DNA from: Spirochaetia bacterium
Lineage (GTDB): Bacteria; Spirochaetota; Spirochaetia; Treponematales; Treponemataceae
Assembly (NCBI GenBank): GCA_022768865.1
Contig: JALELH010000027.1
Span: 1-64,000, forward strand
Direction: 5' to 3'
Length of the DNA stretch: 64,000 bases
A program made the position numbers and the translations under genes. Under the pieces are notes generated by a model that was not told the DNA's origin, did no database searches, and saw only the letters and a program-made list of their open reading frames with translations. This document shows positions 2,044-54,492 of the stretch, piece after piece (the first letter of the stretch is position 1; each line of letters begins with the position of its first letter).

Positions 2044-4490
2044 ATGCAGAATATAGCAGCTGTATCAATAAAAATAGATGATTCTCATAAGGCTATGCTT
2101 TACCCTTCTGGAACTAATCCTTCTATGTGTAAAAGACATGAAAGCATAGATGGATTTGATTTTTTTATTGATGATAATCTTTCTAATAAAATTTATTTTG
2201 AATATAAAGATTCAGAATTAAACATCAGTTCTTTACGCTTAAAAGAAACCATAAGGTATTGCTGTAAGGTTGAAAAACGCTCGGATGAACTGCTTCCGCA
2301 TATTTTTAACGAAGACAACAAACTTGTAAAAATTGAAAAAGAAGATGACAGAATTATTTTCCAGTTTATAAATTATCTTGGAAAATCCAGTATTTATTTT
2401 GGAACAGATAAGACTAAACGTATAGATTTTGAAGTAGTGCCGGATAAAATCAACTACGAAGAAGATTATGTCAAACTTACAGAATCAATAGCTGATGAAT
2501 GTTCTGCATTGCTTTTAGATTATACAAGCCAACTTCCTTAACCTTTCAGCAGGATTCTTCAAAAAATTCAAATATCCTTGAACAGTTTATATTTTTGCGT
2601 ACATTCTGTTTTGCTGATAATCTTGAAAATTTTTTTGCTTCAATAAAAAGAAATCCTGACCGTCTTCTTGTCAGGGAAGAAGAAATGAAACCTTTTGGCA
2701 CTGGTATTCCTTCAAATAAATTCTTTTCTAATCCTTTTGGGCATGGTCGCAGCTGGATGTATACTGACTCTGGTAATTTTTTGCCTGGTGAAATTTCAGT
2801 TGTTCATAAGTATGACAGTTTTGATACTGCTGCTAACAGATTCATAAAGTTTGCATTAAATTTATTTAGAGAAATATGCCAGCAAGTTTTGGATAAGGTT
2901 TCTATAGATAAAAATGGAAAGGAGTATGCATCCGAAACAAAAAGTGTAATACAACAAATAGATTATATTTTAAACGATTCTTTTTTTGATGATATTTATG
3001 AACTTGAAATGATGCCTGTTAATAATCAGGTGCTTGAAAAAAGAGAAGGTTATAGCCAGATATTCAATGCGTTTTCTATGGTTGATTTGGCACTGTCTCT
3101 AGACTGGAAGGGCAAAGATAACATCTATTCTGGAGAAGCAAAGAATACGGCACTTTTATATGAATATTGGCTGTTTTTTGAATTGCGGAAAATTCTTATT
3201 GAACTGGCCGGTAAAGATTGTGGGGAGATTGAAACTTATAACAGGTTTATTAATGATACCAATGGTTTAACAATTTCCTTACAGCAGGGAAATACATCTG
3301 TTCAAACTTATAAATTTGAAAAAGAAAATATTACTGTAAAACTTTACTATAACAGGACATTTTCTCCGTCACAATTCAGCAGCTCAATATATTGGGGGTC
3401 TTATTCACGTCCTTTCAGGCCTGATTATACTCTGGCTGTTTTTCCTTCAAAATATAAGAAAGAGATTGATGCTATAAAATCGGGCGATGTTTCTTATGTT
3501 CATTTTGATGCTAAATATAGAATTCAAGATCTAACTCAGTTTATAAATTCTAACAAGCATCTTGTTACTGATGAAACTATAGATAAACCAGATTTATCTA
3601 TTTCAAAAGAAGAATCCGAAGAATTGATTCAGGAAAAGAATGAAGAAAATGTAAATACATATAAGCGTGGCGACTTACTTAAAATGCATACTTATAATGA
3701 TGCAATTCGTAAAGCGGTTGGCAGCTATGTTCTTTATCCTGGTTCTGATAATAGCACGAAAAGTAATGAACAGTCTTCTGTGTATGATGAAATTTTACCA
3801 GGTGTTGGTGCTTTCGCGATTCGTCCAGGTAATGAAAATTCAGGGCATAAAGCAATAAGAGAATTTGTTCAAAAGATAATTGAATTCAAATCAAAAGAAT
3901 CAAGCCGTCAATACCGAAAAGAATATTTTGAAAATATGGTAATACAATCACCTTCGGAAAAAAGTGAAAATATCCAAATTGATAAGTCTGATGACTATCA
4001 GATGATTGGCTTTATTAGAACTGAATATCTGGATTTTTTGAAGGCTAATAATTTAATCCCAAATACAAAGGAAGATTTAAATAAAAAAAGTGATTGGTTT
4101 ATTTATTTTTACTTTTATGCAATAAAAGGTGGAAAAGTATATACCATTCATAAAGAAACCAGTAAAGCAAAATTTTTGCGTCTTACAGATACAGATATAA
4201 ATAATTGCAAGGATGAATATGGATATAAGTTTCAGCATTTGTTGCCTTGGGAGGCAGAAATAGATTCCTTTGAATTGGTTTCAAAAGAAACATTAAAAGA
4301 AAGGTTAGATTCTTTGTATAAAGAAAAGTCCTTTGAACCAAGGAATGGATTTCATGCAGATTATTATTATCTTGTTAAAGCAAATATAAAATCTTTCTCC
4401 GATCAGGGGTTAACTTCATTTATTGGTTCTGAAAATGATGATATCAGTATTTATTCCCCAAAGATATTTATAAGAATTTTAGATAAGTGA
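2044..4490 (+). pseudogene. DUF2357 restriction nuclease partner, split by a frameshift
   Basis: Two ORFs (2044-2541 and 2499-4490) read as consecutive parts of one protein of about 810 residues. The first ends in ...LLLDYTSQLP-stop; the second, in the frame one base back, continues naturally as PTSLTFQQDSSKNSNILEQF. One base gain or loss between about 2521 and 2541 explains the break. The C-terminal half has a PD-(D/E)XK-like core (RPDYTLAVFP, then VHFDAKYR), as expected for COG1700/DUF2357 nucleases that accompany McrB-like ATPases. The codon context shows no classical XXXYYYZ slippery site, so a mutation or an assembly error is likelier than programmed frameshifting. If the break is real, the restriction system is probably inactive unless the fragments complement each other. 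Confidence 0.7.
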
Positions 4491-4594: not shown

Positions 4595-4966
4595 ATGAAC
4601 GGCTGGTTTGACGATTTTGATTCACTTTACGAAATGTATGACAATGATGAACCTACATTTACATTAGATAATTATATGTATTGTATTCAGCATTATTGGA
4701 CGGAAGAAAATCCGCGTAATCTTCATATAAGCATTACAGATTTAAACAAAGTTCCAGAAGGCGAAGATATATATGCAAAAGAATTTGAAATTGAAAATAT
4801 CGATTTTGATAACTGTTTTGAATTTATCAATAATTATAAGCTAAAAAACGGTAAAACCATGGCTCAGATGATGTGTGATGCAAATGGCTGGGATTATTCA
4901 ATTCTGCCAGTTTATCCAGACTGGTTGTCAACACTTGGGGAGCTGAAAGCAAAACATAATAATTGA
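4595..4966 (+). CDS. Hypothetical acidic protein, 123 aa
   Basis: Not recognised. The protein is acidic and aromatic-rich (WFDDFDSLYEMYDND near the start) with no signal peptide or membrane segment, so it is probably cytoplasmic. An AAAGAGGGAAT Shine-Dalgarno-like sequence lies just upstream of the ATG. It stands alone between the broken restriction genes and the XRE/ImmA pair, with about 100 bp of A/T-rich sequence upstream showing no other feature. It could be an accessory gene of the island, but nothing in the sequence gives a function. Confidence 0.6.
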   Translation: MNGWFDDFDSLYEMYDNDEPTFTLDNYMYCIQHYWTEENPRNLHISITDLNKVPEGEDIYAKEFEIENIDFDNCFEFINNYKLKNGKTMAQMMCDANGWDYSILPVYPDWLSTLGELKAKHNN

Positions 4967-14710: not shown

Positions 14711-15901
14711 TTACTTTGAACTTTCTCCATAAATAAAAATTGCTTTAGCTCCTCTTGGAATTATATAATCATCAAAAGGAATAAAATGGGGTAAATTGCT
14801 TTTTAAAGTCTTTACTTTTTTCAGGTTTGTAACGATTTGTTCCATGTTTGGATTTTTCTGGGCTTCGGCAAGTGCTTCGTTTCTGCGGTGATAAAAGTTT
14901 CCCGTGTTTTCCAGAAGTCCTACAAGGATGTTTTTTGTAGAAAGTGATTTTCTGTAGTCGCCGTAAGTTTTTCCTATAAAGTCTTCTTCTATATTTTGAA
15001 TTAAAATTCCAGAGTCAGAATCTTCTTCTATTAGTTTACGAAGAATATGGCTCATGCCTTTGCCACTGGAAGCCTGGAAAAGAATATTCATTTCATAATC
15101 TGTAGACAAAATAATTTCATCGCAATGGGCAAGGGAAAGGTGCTTTTCAAATTTTGAATTCAGTATTTCTGCAACACAGTAAATCTTCGGGTTCAGGTTT
15201 TTAATGGTAATGGCTGCAAGAACAGTTCTTGAATCAATTTCCAGTGTAGAAAAGTTTTCTGAATAGTCTGCAAGAACCAGTGCACGTTCTGTTGTTTTAA
15301 TCTGTGCTTTAAGCAAGGTGGAATCGTCCGTAAAGTCGCCCTTAACCCAGTTCAGGTTTTTAAACTTTTCTACGTTCTTTATTTTTTCAATTTCTGTCTG
15401 GGGTGCGTTGTTTACAAGAACGATTTTATCTATGGAAATTTCAGTATTGGCAGAAATTATTCCTTCAAGAATTCTGTCAAAATCCGGTTTCCAGCCAAGG
15501 ATGATGAAGTGGTTTTTCATGTTCTGCATTTTTAATAATCCTTTATCTTTTTTCTGTTGTCTGTCAAATAAGAATGAAGCAAATTTTCCTGATAGGGCAC
15601 CAAAGATTGCAACGCCTGCAAGAAGCAAAACCATGGCGGCAACGCGTCCTGTAACGGATGCCGGTGCAATGTCTCCGTAGCCTACTGTTGTAATTGTTAC
15701 CAGGGTATACCAGAATGCGTCAAAAAAAGTATTTATCTGAGAATTGGTTGACTGTTCTGCAAGAAAAATAATCAGCATTAAAATAAATAATGCCGTAACC
15801 GTTATAAGGGTTAAAAAAGAAAATGGAGATGAAATCCATTCTTTGAGTCTTTTTTTAATTTTTGATTCTGGTTTTTTATCCGTGTTTTTTTTGTTTTTCA
15901 T
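14711..15901 (-). CDS. Two-TM potassium channel with RCK (TrkA-like) domains
   Basis: Two membrane helices (about residues 27-48 and 85-105) flank a pore loop with the K+ selectivity filter TTVGYGD. A Rossmann-like RCK domain begins at about residue 128 (NHFIILGWKPDFDRILEGI) and is followed by a second RCK-like half. The nucleotide motif is G-W-K-P-D-F rather than GxGxxG, so ligand binding may differ. Length 396 aa matches MthK/Kch-type channels. It sits in the inner membrane and sets K+ permeability; the downstream cNMP-binding protein may gate it. TrkH/TrkA at 20.4-23.3 kb gives the cell separate K+ uptake. Confidence 0.85.
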   Translation of the reverse strand: MKNKKNTDKKPESKIKKRLKEWISSPFSFLTLITVTALFILMLIIFLAEQSTNSQINTFFDAFWYTLVTITTVGYGDIAPASVTGRVAAMVLLLAGVAIFGALSGKFASFLFDRQQKKDKGLLKMQNMKNHFIILGWKPDFDRILEGIISANTEISIDKIVLVNNAPQTEIEKIKNVEKFKNLNWVKGDFTDDSTLLKAQIKTTERALVLADYSENFSTLEIDSRTVLAAITIKNLNPKIYCVAEILNSKFEKHLSLAHCDEIILSTDYEMNILFQASSGKGMSHILRKLIEEDSDSGILIQNIEEDFIGKTYGDYRKSLSTKNILVGLLENTGNFYHRRNEALAEAQKNPNMEQIVTNLKKVKTLKSNLPHFIPFDDYIIPRGAKAIFIYGESSK

Positions 15902-16061: not shown

Positions 16062-16802
16062 ATGAAAAAGATTAATTTATTTTTAATGCTTTCTGTCTGT
16101 TTTTGTTTTGGTTTATTTTCCTGCAAAAAGAATACAATTGTTTTAGAAAGCGGCGCTAAGTATGAAATGATTGCTGTTCCTGAAAAAAACTTTCTGATTG
16201 GCAAAACTGAAATTACACAGGAAGTGTATGAAGCCGTAATGAAAGAAAACCCTTCATTTAACAAAAAGAAAAATTACCCTGCTGAAAACTTAAGCTTTTA
16301 TGATGCAATAGTTTTTTGCAATAAACTAAGTGAATTGACAGGCAAAAACCCATGCTACAGTATTGACGGTTTAACTGATGTTTCAAAATGGAATTATGTT
16401 CCTCATCAGCATGCCGTAATAAAAGAAGAAATTGTTTTTGATGAAACTGCAGGCGGCTATCATATTCCAACAATGGAAGAATGGGATTTTGCAATTAAAG
16501 GCGGTCAAAACTTTACATACAGCGGAAGCAATGATCTGGATTCTGTTGCATGGACAGATTGCAACGCAGGCGGTTCTTCCCATCAGGTTGCAACACTAAA
16601 GCCAAACGGCTATGGCATTTATGATATGTCCGGAAACGTTCTGGAATGGGTATGGTTTATAAGGGATGATTCTAGCAGATACTGCAGGGGCGGAAGTTTT
16701 TTTGACAGGGGCAGTGCAGGCAAGTGCACTAATAAGGAATTAAAATACGGTTCAACACAGTCTAAAACTGTCGGCATGCGCATTGCGTGTAAAAAAAACT
16801 GA
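16062..16802 (+). CDS. SUMF1/FGE-fold lipoprotein
   Basis: The signal peptide MKKINLFLMLSVCFCFGLFSC ends in the lipobox LFSC, so the protein is lipid-anchored. The rest is a formylglycine-generating-enzyme (SUMF1) fold: GKTEITQEVYEAVM, ENLSFYDAIVFCNKLSE, MEEWDFAIKGG, DMSGNVLEWVW and CRGGSFFD. Treponemes carry many such lipoproteins, most of them not sulfatase activators. A strong AAGGAG lies before the ATG. It is convergent with the AraC-type regulator at 16811, only 8 bp away. A carbohydrate- or ligand-binding surface role is possible but not shown. Confidence 0.8.
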   Translation: MKKINLFLMLSVCFCFGLFSCKKNTIVLESGAKYEMIAVPEKNFLIGKTEITQEVYEAVMKENPSFNKKKNYPAENLSFYDAIVFCNKLSELTGKNPCYSIDGLTDVSKWNYVPHQHAVIKEEIVFDETAGGYHIPTMEEWDFAIKGGQNFTYSGSNDLDSVAWTDCNAGGSSHQVATLKPNGYGIYDMSGNVLEWVWFIRDDSSRYCRGGSFFDRGSAGKCTNKELKYGSTQSKTVGMRIACKKN

Positions 16803-19204: not shown

Positions 19205-19461
19205 GCTTGTAACTTCTAAAAGATTCGATAAGGAATATAAGAAGCTGCCGCCTGAATTGAGAACTGAAACAAAATGTTATAGATAAACTTTTAGCAGGGC
19301 AGAAGCTTGAAGCAAAATATAAAGACCATCAGCTAAAAGGAAAACTTAAAGATTTCAGGGACTGCCACGTCCGCCCGGATTTAGTTTTAATTTACAGTAT
19401 AAATAACGAAAACCTTATTTTAAATGCATTCAGAATCAATAGTCATTCTGAAATATTTTAA
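19194..19461 (+). pseudogene. YafQ/RelE-type mRNA interferase toxin, frameshifted
   Basis: ATG 19194 opens MVYKLVTSKRFDKEYKKLPPELR and then stops early. Shifting one frame at about 19262-19272 gives a convincing remainder: ELKQNVIDKLLAGQKLEAKYKDHQL, then GKLKDFRDCHVRPDLVLIYSI, ending NAFRINSHSEIF at TAA 19459-19461. The whole would be about 88 aa, normal for YafQ, including the C-terminal histidine (SHS) used by the family. The toxin is therefore probably inactive while the antitoxin is intact. This is the pattern expected when a toxin has been disarmed; an assembly error is the alternative. Confidence 0.75.
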
Positions 19462-52278: not shown

Positions 52279-52313
52279 GTAAAAACCACAGGAAAATTGA
52301 ATTTTTTTATGGC

Positions 52314-52541
52314 TTATTGATTATGTTTTGCAAAGGCTACTTCCATGTGTTTTTTTTCTTTTACACATTCAAGAAGATAGTAATTTATTATGTTCTGATA
52401 AGGCATGCCAGTTTCTTCAGACATTTTCTTAAAATAATCGATTACCTGCTCGTCAAGGCGGATTGTAATCTGCTGTTTAAGTTTTCCGGCATAAGGATTT
52501 TTTACTGCATTAGAAAAATCGTATTCTTCCCGCATTTTCAT
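52314..52541 (-). CDS. BrnA/CopG-like antitoxin, apparently orphan
   Basis: The ORF track starts at 52607, but the family-like sequence starts at MKMREEYDFSNAVKNPYAGKL. That, followed by QQITIRLDEQVIDYFKKMSEETGMPYQNIINYYL, is the BrnA-type ribbon-helix-helix. In BrnT-BrnA pairs the toxin gene lies just upstream. Here only a 23-bp repeat array is found upstream, so the antitoxin is orphan or acts with a distant toxin. No strong ribosome binding site is visible before the start. Confidence 0.6.
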   Translation of the reverse strand: MKMREEYDFSNAVKNPYAGKLKQQITIRLDEQVIDYFKKMSEETGMPYQNIINYYLLECVKEKKHMEVAFAKHNQ

Positions 52542-52656
52542 AATTATATAATAATTATTGTTTGCCTGGTTTGTCAAATAATACGATATGGGTAAGGAAT
52601 GTAACAAAATCAGTTGCAGCCTGTTTTCCCTGGCAGCGTCAGCCTTGTGGAGTTCA

Positions 52657-52840
52657 CCGGTATATTACAACATACCAGACCGGTATATTACAATATACCA
52701 GACCGGTATATTATAATATACCGATTCGGTATGTTACAGTATACCAAACCGGTATACTACCATATACCACATCGGTATACGACCGTATTCCATATCGGTA
52801 TACGACCATATACCAAATCGGTATACGACCATATACCGAT
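52657..52840. repeat. Array of exactly eight 23-bp palindromic tandem repeats
   Basis: Eight 23-bp units with no spacers start at 52657 and end at 52840. Each has the form (C/T)CGGTAT-n8-ATACC-n3, for example CCGGTATATTACAACATACC plus AGA, with inverted arms GGTAT and ATACC. Units 1-3 are most alike and units 6-8 form a second subgroup (TCGGTATACGACC). Period and design match the array at 39839 though the sequence differs. The rest of the 52542-53063 gap shows nothing except the direct repeat at 52954. Confidence 0.9.
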
Positions 52841-52953
52841 TGTGTCATAATGCAGTGCAATGCGACGGCAGGCCTAAGGTTTGTGTGGGGAATACTAGGT
52901 AATTTTGGAGGATTCTGGCTGTGTTGTTGAATGGAGGAATAAAATAGTACCAG

Positions 52954-53060
52954 GACAGTAGTTTTCCCTTATTTACTTAACGCCCCTGGAGCATTCCGTG
53001 CAGCCGGTGACTATTACGTGCTTTTTGCCGTCTGTTTTGTTGAAAAGGCGTGCTATAAAG
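52954..53060. repeat. Left copy of a 107-bp direct repeat flanking a two-gene module
   Basis: Matches 54051-54157 with 104 of 107 identical bases, at an offset of 1097 bp. Read on the minus strand it encodes the last codons of the zinc-ribbon gene at 54070 (DGKKHVIVTGCTECSRGVK-stop), detached from that gene. Two of the three differences are silent in that frame. Confidence 0.9.
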
Positions 53061-53063
53061 TTT

Positions 53064-53573
53064 TCACAATGGAAGAATAATATTATTTTCTTTGCATACC
53101 TGGTTTAGTGTTTTTATTTGTTTTGCAGATAAAGTTTTATAAACTTCATTCAGCCTGGTTTTATGTTCTGCTGATTTTTCAATATGATAAAGAAGTTCTT
53201 TTACTGCTTCTATGTCTTTAGCTTTTTTCTCAGGCGGTTCACGAACGGGATTTGTCAGAATCTTTTGAATTACATAAACGGCAGGTTCTGGTATGGTAAT
53301 TGCATATGATTCGCCATCTGTTCCGGTAACGATTACTTCACGGACAAAGTTGGAAAAAATATTTATAACCCTTAATCCTTCTGATGTTATTCCTAACGGC
53401 TTTATTTTCATTCTTCCTTCCGTTCCAGAACCTAAAACTCTTGTCAGGAATTCAAGTTCAAGAAGGTCTTCTTTGTAAAAGCGTGAAATGCCATCCACTT
53501 CATCGTATACATAGCCTATGTCTTTGAAAGCCCTGATAGTCTGCCAGAATGCTTCTTCCTGTTCTTTTCTCAT
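53064..53573 (-). CDS. Nucleotidyltransferase-like protein lacking the catalytic half
   Basis: The 169-aa protein resembles the central and C-terminal part of GSU2403-type nucleotidyltransferase-fold proteins: YDEVDGISRFYKEDLLELEFL, IKPLGITSEGLRVINIF, VTIPEP-like ITIPEPAVYVIQKIL and EKKAKDIEAVKELL. The usual N-terminal G-S/D-x-D catalytic motif is not present. Its start overlaps the preceding gene by 4 bp (ATGA), so the pair is translationally coupled. Its stop lies 3 bp from the left 107-bp repeat. A toxin- or defence-like role is suggested by the pair layout; the assignment is tentative. Confidence 0.55.
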   Translation of the reverse strand: MRKEQEEAFWQTIRAFKDIGYVYDEVDGISRFYKEDLLELEFLTRVLGSGTEGRMKIKPLGITSEGLRVINIFSNFVREVIVTGTDGESYAITIPEPAVYVIQKILTNPVREPPEKKAKDIEAVKELLYHIEKSAEHKTRLNEVYKTLSAKQIKTLNQVCKENNIILPL

Positions 53574-53878
53574 TTCAGTGCCTTTAGTAATTCTTTTTGT
53601 TCCTGCAGGAGTTTTTTCAGAAGCTGTTTATATTCCTTTTGCCTGTTCAGCTGAGACTGTAATTCATCTGTATTGAATTCTTCTGCTTTTCCTAAGAATT
53701 TAGAGATAACTTTCTTGCCTTCACGATAATTTAAATACAAATATTCCTGACTTCCTATTTTACGCTTAAAAATAGAGCCTTTGGGCAGAGTTTCAAGTTC
53801 CGTTTTGTAGCGGGATATCAGGCGGCCGTTTCTTTCCAGTTCATCCTGAAATACTGCTTTTACTACGTCAGATTTCAT
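53570..53878 (-). CDS. Small partner protein of the two-gene module
   Basis: The 102-aa protein is basic and helical (MKSDVVKAVFQDELERNGRL, then a beta-like KGSIFKRKIGSQEYLYLNYREGKKVISKFLGK). It ends in a predicted coiled coil (LNRQKEYKQLLKKLLQEQKELLKAL). No family is recognised with confidence. It is first in an operon with the nucleotidyltransferase-like gene and is preceded by a perfect 12-bp operator-like inverted repeat. This is the arrangement expected of an autoregulated antitoxin or regulator. Confidence 0.6.
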   Translation of the reverse strand: MKSDVVKAVFQDELERNGRLISRYKTELETLPKGSIFKRKIGSQEYLYLNYREGKKVISKFLGKAEEFNTDELQSQLNRQKEYKQLLKKLLQEQKELLKALK

Positions 53879-53885
53879 AAATTCT

Positions 53886-53930
53886 TCTTACACTACATAT
53901 TGACAGAATATTAATATTTGTAGTGTAAGA
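53886..53930 (-). promoter_or_regulatory. Operator-like inverted repeat before the two-gene module
   Basis: TCTTACACTACA (53886-53897) and TGTAGTGTAAGA (53919-53930) are perfect 12-bp inverted arms 21 bp apart. They lie directly upstream of the first gene of the module, on the promoter side. Confidence 0.7.
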
Positions 53931-54050
53931 TATTTTATATCACATTATTTGTTAATTCAAGGTTTTTCTGTAATTGCAATGCATGCTTAGGTGCCGGAAA
54001 GATTCTTATGCAAGCCGGAACATTACATAGGGGCTTATCAGTCCTATATA

Positions 54051-54157
54051 GACAGTAGTTTTCCCTTATTTACTTAACGCCTCTGGAGCATTCCGTGCAG
54101 CCGGTGACTATTACGTGCTTTTTGCCGTCTGTTTTGTTAAAAAGGCGTGCTATAAGG
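54051..54157. repeat. Right copy of the 107-bp direct repeat, inside the zinc-ribbon gene end
   Basis: It covers the last codons and stop of the minus-strand gene 54070-54492 plus 19 bp beyond. It matches 52954-53060 except at three positions. Confidence 0.9.
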
Positions 54158-54492
54158 TGTCCGTCTTTAAGGGGAACATTTTTATGGCATACAGGGCATA
54201 TTCTTTTTAGGCCCGGTTCCGGCTTAGGGTAGCAGTGGGGGCAGCCGTTTATGGTGCAGAGCTGGTCCGGCACATTCATGGGCCTGTAAACACGGCTTAT
54301 CAGGTCTTCCCCCGGCAAAAGCATGGTGTTGCATAAAGGGCAGGAAACTAAGAGACCTTTTTTTGCGGCATCCTTTCTTTTCTGTTCCATCTTTCTGCGT
54401 TCTGCCTGGGTTTTGTTAGCCTGAAAGTTTATATAGAAGTTGAGCAGCCAGATTATAAAAAGCAGCACGATTGCGGCAATAATGTAAAACAT
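54070..54492 (-). CDS. Membrane-anchored zinc-ribbon protein, 140 aa
   Basis: An N-terminal helix (residues about 2-20, IIAAIVLLFIIWLLNFYI) and a short basic coiled region precede several Cys pairs: VSCPLCNTML, GCPHC, RICPVCHKNV and GCTEC. These probably bind one or two zinc ions on the cytoplasmic side. The family is not recognised. Its 3' 88 bp plus the following 19 bp are duplicated at 52954-53060. This means the gene's end was copied or replaced when the neighbouring two-gene module arrived. Confidence 0.7.
   Translation of the reverse strand: MFYIIAAIVLLFIIWLLNFYINFQANKTQAERRKMEQKRKDAAKKGLLVSCPLCNTMLLPGEDLISRVYRPMNVPDQLCTINGCPHCYPKPEPGLKRICPVCHKNVPLKDGHLIARLFNKTDGKKHVIVTGCTECSRGVK

Follow-up and report, generated by a model that had tools for sequence, protein, structure and literature searches.

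It has long been poorly understood by what route small chromosomal toxin-antitoxin modules that lack a transposase arrive at new sites, and the locus analyzed here raises this question directly: in a rumen Treponema, a pair of genes lies just 3' of another gene and is followed by a second, detached copy of that gene's end. Insertion of a gene pair in this manner would be a rarely described kind of mobility, known mainly from restriction-modification genes. We studied the locus in its window, i.e., the whole 64 kb stretch of DNA that was analyzed, and in other genomes of the genus, the data being metagenome assemblies with one genome per species. In our preferred reading, which we hold to be fairly probable, an operator and two genes, M1 and M2 (about 1 kb), form a transposase-less, mobile, toxin-antitoxin-like module that inserted with a long target duplication directly 3' of the stop codon of a zinc-ribbon gene. 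The unit and its edges can be specified, as can several sites of insertion, one empty site and a second, unrelated toxin-antitoxin family with the same behavior; a mechanism proposed from restriction-modification genes would thus be extended to another addiction-type class and made testable.

The gene pair and its flanking repeats

BLAST and ungapped extension yielded a direct repeat at positions 52954-53058 and 54051-54155, with 103 of 105 bases identical and a spacing of 1097 bp. A sequence-only reading of this DNA had reported 104 matches in 107 bases at this spacing; the repeat was real, but the third mismatch belonged to a ragged edge (ungapped and BLAST ends at 52954-53058/61 and 54051-54155/58) outside the 105-bp core. 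The two mismatches of the core (52985 C / 54082 T and 53042 G / 54139 A) were both synonymous in the zinc-ribbon frame (codon 137 AGA/AGG, codon 118 TTT/TTC). The host or target gene (54070-54492, minus strand) encodes a zinc-ribbon membrane protein of 140 aa and is conserved in 178 of 196 genomes of the genus. Its final 86 bp together with 19 bp downstream make up the attached copy (54051-54155, minus strand), and the detached copy (52954-53058, minus strand) starts 5 bp past the stop codon of M2; the earlier assignment of the right copy to the end of gene 54070-54492 and of the left one to the same end, detached, agreed with these coordinates. Within the 64 kb window, this was the only pair of such length at most 5 kb apart, and searching the rest of the genome revealed no second copy of the repeat or of the M1-M2 module. 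The SNP differences between the copies and their unlike flanks argue against an assembly echo.

Only two ORFs (53570-53878 and 53064-53573) and an operator-like inverted repeat (53886-53930) lie between the copies, as had been proposed, and no integrase is carried by the module, also in line with the first reading. Starting from the attached gene end, a spacer without family resemblance (53931-54050, minus strand) leads to the putative operator (53886-53930, minus strand), an inverted repeat of the form TTACACTACAAAT..n..ATATGTAGTGTAAG, also written TTACACTACAAA..TTTGTAGTGTAA, which is found upstream of M1 in 13 of 13 module copies, sometimes in tandem, 6-9 bp ahead of M1, and forms the left edge of the shared unit. 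M1 (53570-53878, minus strand) encodes 102 aa and M2 (53064-53573, minus strand) a 169-aa nucleotidyltransferase of the NTP_transf_8 family. The two ORFs overlap by ATGA, and operator, M1 and M2 are all read in the direction of the zinc-ribbon gene.

The M1 ORF was open in every copy except those cut by contig ends. Its product has a predicted helix / three-stranded sheet / helix fold (pLDDT 92), for which a structure search returned no match among solved folds, and it matched no known antitoxin family; M1 is a probable regulator or antitoxin. A 618-aa ATPase-like protein (locus L150, 4262-6118) with an M1-like N-terminal stretch (LPQGYIVAKVINGKKYFYQQWKENGK) occurs in about a dozen genomes of the genus.

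The structure search with M2 gave weak nucleotidyltransferase matches only, at low model confidence. In the window, M2 aligned with the C-terminal half of the Pfam NTP_transf_8 profile only (94-205 of 218), whereas in other genomes the protein has about 227-230 aa and its match starts at position 5 or 7 and extends up to 213. According to the alignment, the window copy has lost about 57 codons in frame, including the catalytic motif GSW...TRDVDFF; the nucleotidyltransferase motif GS...DxD, deleted here, is intact in six other copies. The window M2 is thus probably dead after the loss of its catalytic segment. Other M2 copies were disrupted independently, by a frameshift (L068), a deletion plus a frameshift (L069), a stop (L073) or deletions (L074 and L145).

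Taken as a pair, M1 and M2 look like a toxin-antitoxin or other addiction module. They share with MenAT, AbiE and MNT-HEPN (PMC10435456, PMC3985639) a two-gene operon including a nucleotidyltransferase, a palindromic operator, a patchy distribution and frequent loss of the nucleotidyltransferase. They differ from these systems in that M2 belongs to Pfam NTP_transf_8 and is neither MenT nor AbiEii, that M1 falls outside known antitoxin families, and that the catalytic motif is missing from the window copy.

Module sites in the genus

Searching all 200 genomes of the genus with an M1 profile, we recovered the module in 14 of them, at unlinked sites, plus M1 or M2 fragments in three more (G050, G111 and G099); a single-sequence contig search had recovered only three module loci. 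An order-level search detected nothing comparable to M1-M2 outside the genus, and plasmid, phage and viral-contig collections contained no M2 relatives. We therefore rejected a phage or plasmid vehicle, the family having been found in this genus only when the order was searched. The module lies 3' of the zinc-ribbon gene in the window, 3' of a GNAT gene (L067), adjoining aspS (L068), 3' of an aldolase-like gene (L071), upstream of aspS (L073), 3' of a hipA-like gene (L074), and at other sites; in G135, an aspS end lies 3' of the module. Among the readable module loci, one site was common to two genomes only (G035 and G075). The suggestion that the module would be found at other gene ends was thus borne out elsewhere in the genus, including at the end of the GNAT gene.

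Site-specific flanking repeats of 30-105 bp were present at 6 of the 13 readable module copies: 105 bp in the window, 30 bp at the GNAT gene end (L067), 44 bp (L071), 49 bp (L073), 54 bp (L074), and, as the sixth, a diverged aspS end at L068 (SQLDDSHINCYDEEKE-stop), in frame from M2 and seen at the protein level. When flank repeats were scored by local alignment, five of 13 sites were far above shuffled controls, and these five DNA-scored sites compare with 15 of 3000 random 1-kb windows (p = 9e-9). The repeat sequence was unlike at every module site, and at 4 of the 6 repeat-bearing sites the start of the downstream repeat was no more than a few bases away from the end of M2. The remaining 7 of 13 copies have no repeat, which implies either decay of the repeat or another route. 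An empty site was recovered for the GNAT gene: in G157, at about 90% identity, a single GNAT end is directly followed by the flank that in G064 (L067) follows the detached end. At the level of sequence, this difference is the hallmark of insertion with target duplication. Seven cases (YafQ loci, described below, included) were clearly linked to a gene, and in each of them the module was read in the direction of the gene upstream of it.

Neither an integrase nor an att-like sequence was common to the module sites, where the repeats are unrelated to one another, and the unit itself comprises no integrase, transposase or attC. These results bear on three known types of element. Gene 3' ends are classic attachment sites for integrative elements, and the module could be the remnant of a larger element attached at a gene end that lost everything except its addiction module. 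As in tyrosine-recombinase islands and phages at such ends, the gene regains its end and a further copy lies beyond the insert, and aspS insertions with replacement ends do occur in scattered lineages of the genus. Unlike these elements, the module has no integrase and no shared att core and adjoins a different gene at each site; this minimal unit, which stops at the end of M2, recurs at many unrelated sites with unrelated repeats, and this, together with the absence of M2 relatives from the phage, plasmid and viral-contig collections, makes such an origin very unlikely in our view.

Integrons often carry toxin-antitoxin cassettes, and integron integrases scored above the curated cut-off in 7 of 24 genomes of the same genus (G001, G002, G005, G007, G016, G019 and G022). 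The module resembles a cassette in its small, often toxin-antitoxin, cargo between repeated sites. However, it has no attC, its repeats consist of host gene ends or local DNA, with another sequence at each site, this assembly contains no integron integrase above the cut-off, and the integron sites of G001 form one homogeneous family unlike any module repeat. The last comparison largely refutes a cassette inserted outside an integron, an explanation that we consider barely credible. Unlike insertion sequences or composite transposons, the locus has no transposase ORF between its repeats, and the duplications span 30-105 bp.

Duplicated gene ends in relatives and around other inserts

In the two nearest relatives, G031 and G027, the module is absent between the zinc-ribbon and flagellin genes. 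This absence and the occurrence of the module at other sites uphold the initial view that it is mobile. The comparison with an empty site proposed at that stage gave a mixed picture: these two genomes lack the module and the zinc-ribbon gene end is single in about 27 relatives that are more distant, but G031 and G027 carry their own duplication of that end, of about 31 bp, around a two-hairpin insert of about 50 bp. The sequence-only reading had counted a repeat copy without the module in an unrelated context as evidence against itself, and what we observed comes close to this, the same gene end being duplicated without the module, there around the two-hairpin insert. The zinc-ribbon gene end thus appears to have been already prone to duplication.

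This observation is the main argument for a further explanation, in which an older, independent duplication of the gene end was followed by replacement of the DNA between the two ends by the module. Both relatives have the duplicated end with a different insert, as it would predict; on the other hand, their repeat is about 31 bp long versus 105 bp in the window, the inserts share no sequence, and a module repeat is also found at the GNAT gene, where the nearest relatives are single-ended. We judge this order of events to be quite unlikely.

The relatives also allowed us to polarize the two core differences of the window repeat: each copy, attached and detached, carried the derived state at one of them. 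Both copies thus seem to trace back to local sequence, neither end looking imported, and the idea that the module had arrived here with a diverged replacement 3' end found no support. The two silent changes would fit drift or recombination equally well.

About 670 bp of extra DNA between the detached end and the flagellin gene (52286-52953, no strand assigned) are also missing in the relatives. They include a solitary BrnA/CopG-type antitoxin ORF (52314-52607, minus strand), without an obvious toxin partner and missing from the closest relatives, and, between this ORF and the detached gene end, about eight near-palindromes of about 23 bp (GGTATATTACAATATACC type; 52656-52840). Rfam searches assigned no family to the window insert and returned for the palindrome array only microRNA matches below gathering scores.

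A second case was found in the same genome, where a RelB-YafQ pair is flanked by lepB on one side and by a 103-bp duplicate of that gene's end on the other. Of the other YafQ loci of the genus, 23 were readable, and 4 of these had flanking repeats (p = 9e-6); at one of them (L285), the 68-bp repeat comprises the last 30 bp of the gene and 38 bp downstream. We no longer took silent differences to prove that two alleles had been functional and regard them as suggestive, since those at lepB are also explained by a change in the working copy, relatives carrying AGA like the detached copy. The window itself contains a degenerate YafQ toxin remnant with one internal stop (19225-19458), for which no flanking repeat was detected.

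In a crude scan of this genome, close downstream duplicates were found for 3 of 396 gene ends and for no gene start. A general excess of gene-end duplication across Treponema was rejected, as none was convincing in 387 ORFs from other genomes of the genus, the control gene calls being simple open reading frames. Gene-end matches at L085 and L153 were judged to be chance or repeats, and the one at L159 adjoins a Schlafen-like gene.

Of 58 genomes sampled for aspS, at least 7 had a duplicated 3' end of this gene, G055 having four copies of it. Between the copies lies a conserved non-coding hairpin mini-element (loci L194, L195, L196, L197, L198, L199 and L177), which is also dispersed, with 63 copies in 21 of 59 genomes of the genus, as determined with the pattern GAGTCAAGGCNNTNAGCGA..GCCTTGACC; the reversed control pattern gave no copies. 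Apparently compensating changes occur beside the stem of the intergenic mini-element, and no Rfam family was found for it. We read 30 of these loci (L212-L241) and rejected the mini-element as a general carrier of gene ends, flanking duplications being present only at aspS and perhaps in G045 (L233).

Four genomes (G002, G022, G014 and G007) have a detached end similar to the aspS end that is usual among relatives, the nearest relative G020 in the case of G022; when ends were ordered by similarity to the detached end of the same genome, the attached, working end came only 9th to 33rd of 37. It is thus well supported by these comparisons that, at aspS, the attached end looks foreign and the detached end native. 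An element bringing a replacement end, as first imagined for the window, accordingly has a counterpart at aspS, but no foreign end was detectable in the window. Gene ends in this genus prove to be duplicated repeatedly and, at aspS, apparently replaced, with an altered C-terminus of an essential enzyme.

Routes of insertion

Four observations at the sequence level were shown to support insertion of a mobile module with target duplication: the unit occurs at unlinked sites, its repeats are variable and site-specific, an empty site exists elsewhere, and an unrelated toxin-antitoxin pair has the same layout. At the zinc-ribbon gene, insertion would have duplicated the terminal 86 bp of the gene with the 19 bp that follow, leaving the gene with an intact end and a second end beyond the module. 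We favor a duplication arising in break- or replication-linked insertion, possibly by a template switch to the module and a return 30-105 bp behind the point of departure. Once present, the repeats could allow precise loss, exchange or homogenization of the RecA type. The nucleotidyltransferase of the window would have lost its active site later.

Alternatively, the module could have entered as in the Campbell model, by one homologous crossover between the resident gene end and a circle, excised from a relative, that carried the module with a zinc-ribbon end. This scenario yields exactly the order gene, module, detached end; the inserted units at aspS do bring a foreign gene end, and the differences between the copies are mostly silent, as expected from two working genes. 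It nevertheless requires a donor that carries the module at that very gene, and among the 200 species no other was found to have the module at the zinc-ribbon or GNAT gene. Besides, the window differences are split one per copy with no foreign end visible, and arrival at a new gene is left unexplained. We consider this route unlikely for the window, although single-crossover entry of a circle explains the foreign aspS ends, as break- or replication-linked insertion explains the variable lengths and the new targets.

The fixed orientation and the reuse of some gene ends are poorly explained by either route and leave room for a targeted process. Specifically, the repeated choice of the zinc-ribbon and aspS ends and the constant orientation point to targeting and away from breaks at random. 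One could speculate, with low confidence, that Treponema has a trans-acting machinery that places modules and hairpin mini-elements right after stop codons, in gene orientation, duplicating the last 30-105 bp and reusing the same ends. If this were true, toxin-antitoxin modules would have a mobility distinct from transposition, site-specific integration and integron capture.

The closest precedent for insertion of a module with long target duplication is provided by restriction-modification genes of Helicobacter (Nobusato et al., 2000; Furuta et al., 2010), according to passages in PMC3874152, PMC3031569 and PMC1643837. As these passages describe them, the Helicobacter cases share with ours a selfish two-gene unit without transposase, variable repeats of up to about 100 bp and presence/absence polymorphism. 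They differ from the present ones in the cargo, which here consists of M1 with an NTP_transf_8 nucleotidyltransferase or of RelB-YafQ, in the host, here Treponema, and in the targets, several of which are here 3' ends of genes, the module being read in the same direction as the gene. The literature searched, with partial coverage, contained no published case of long target duplication with toxin-antitoxin modules.

Two other loci of the genus have genes between direct repeats of about 38-39 bp, possibly reflecting the same insertion style: a DUF4143-like ATPase gene (L097, repeats at 3018-3055 and 4696-4733) and a broken Schlafen-like gene (L159, repeats at about 14970-15009 and 16310-16350).
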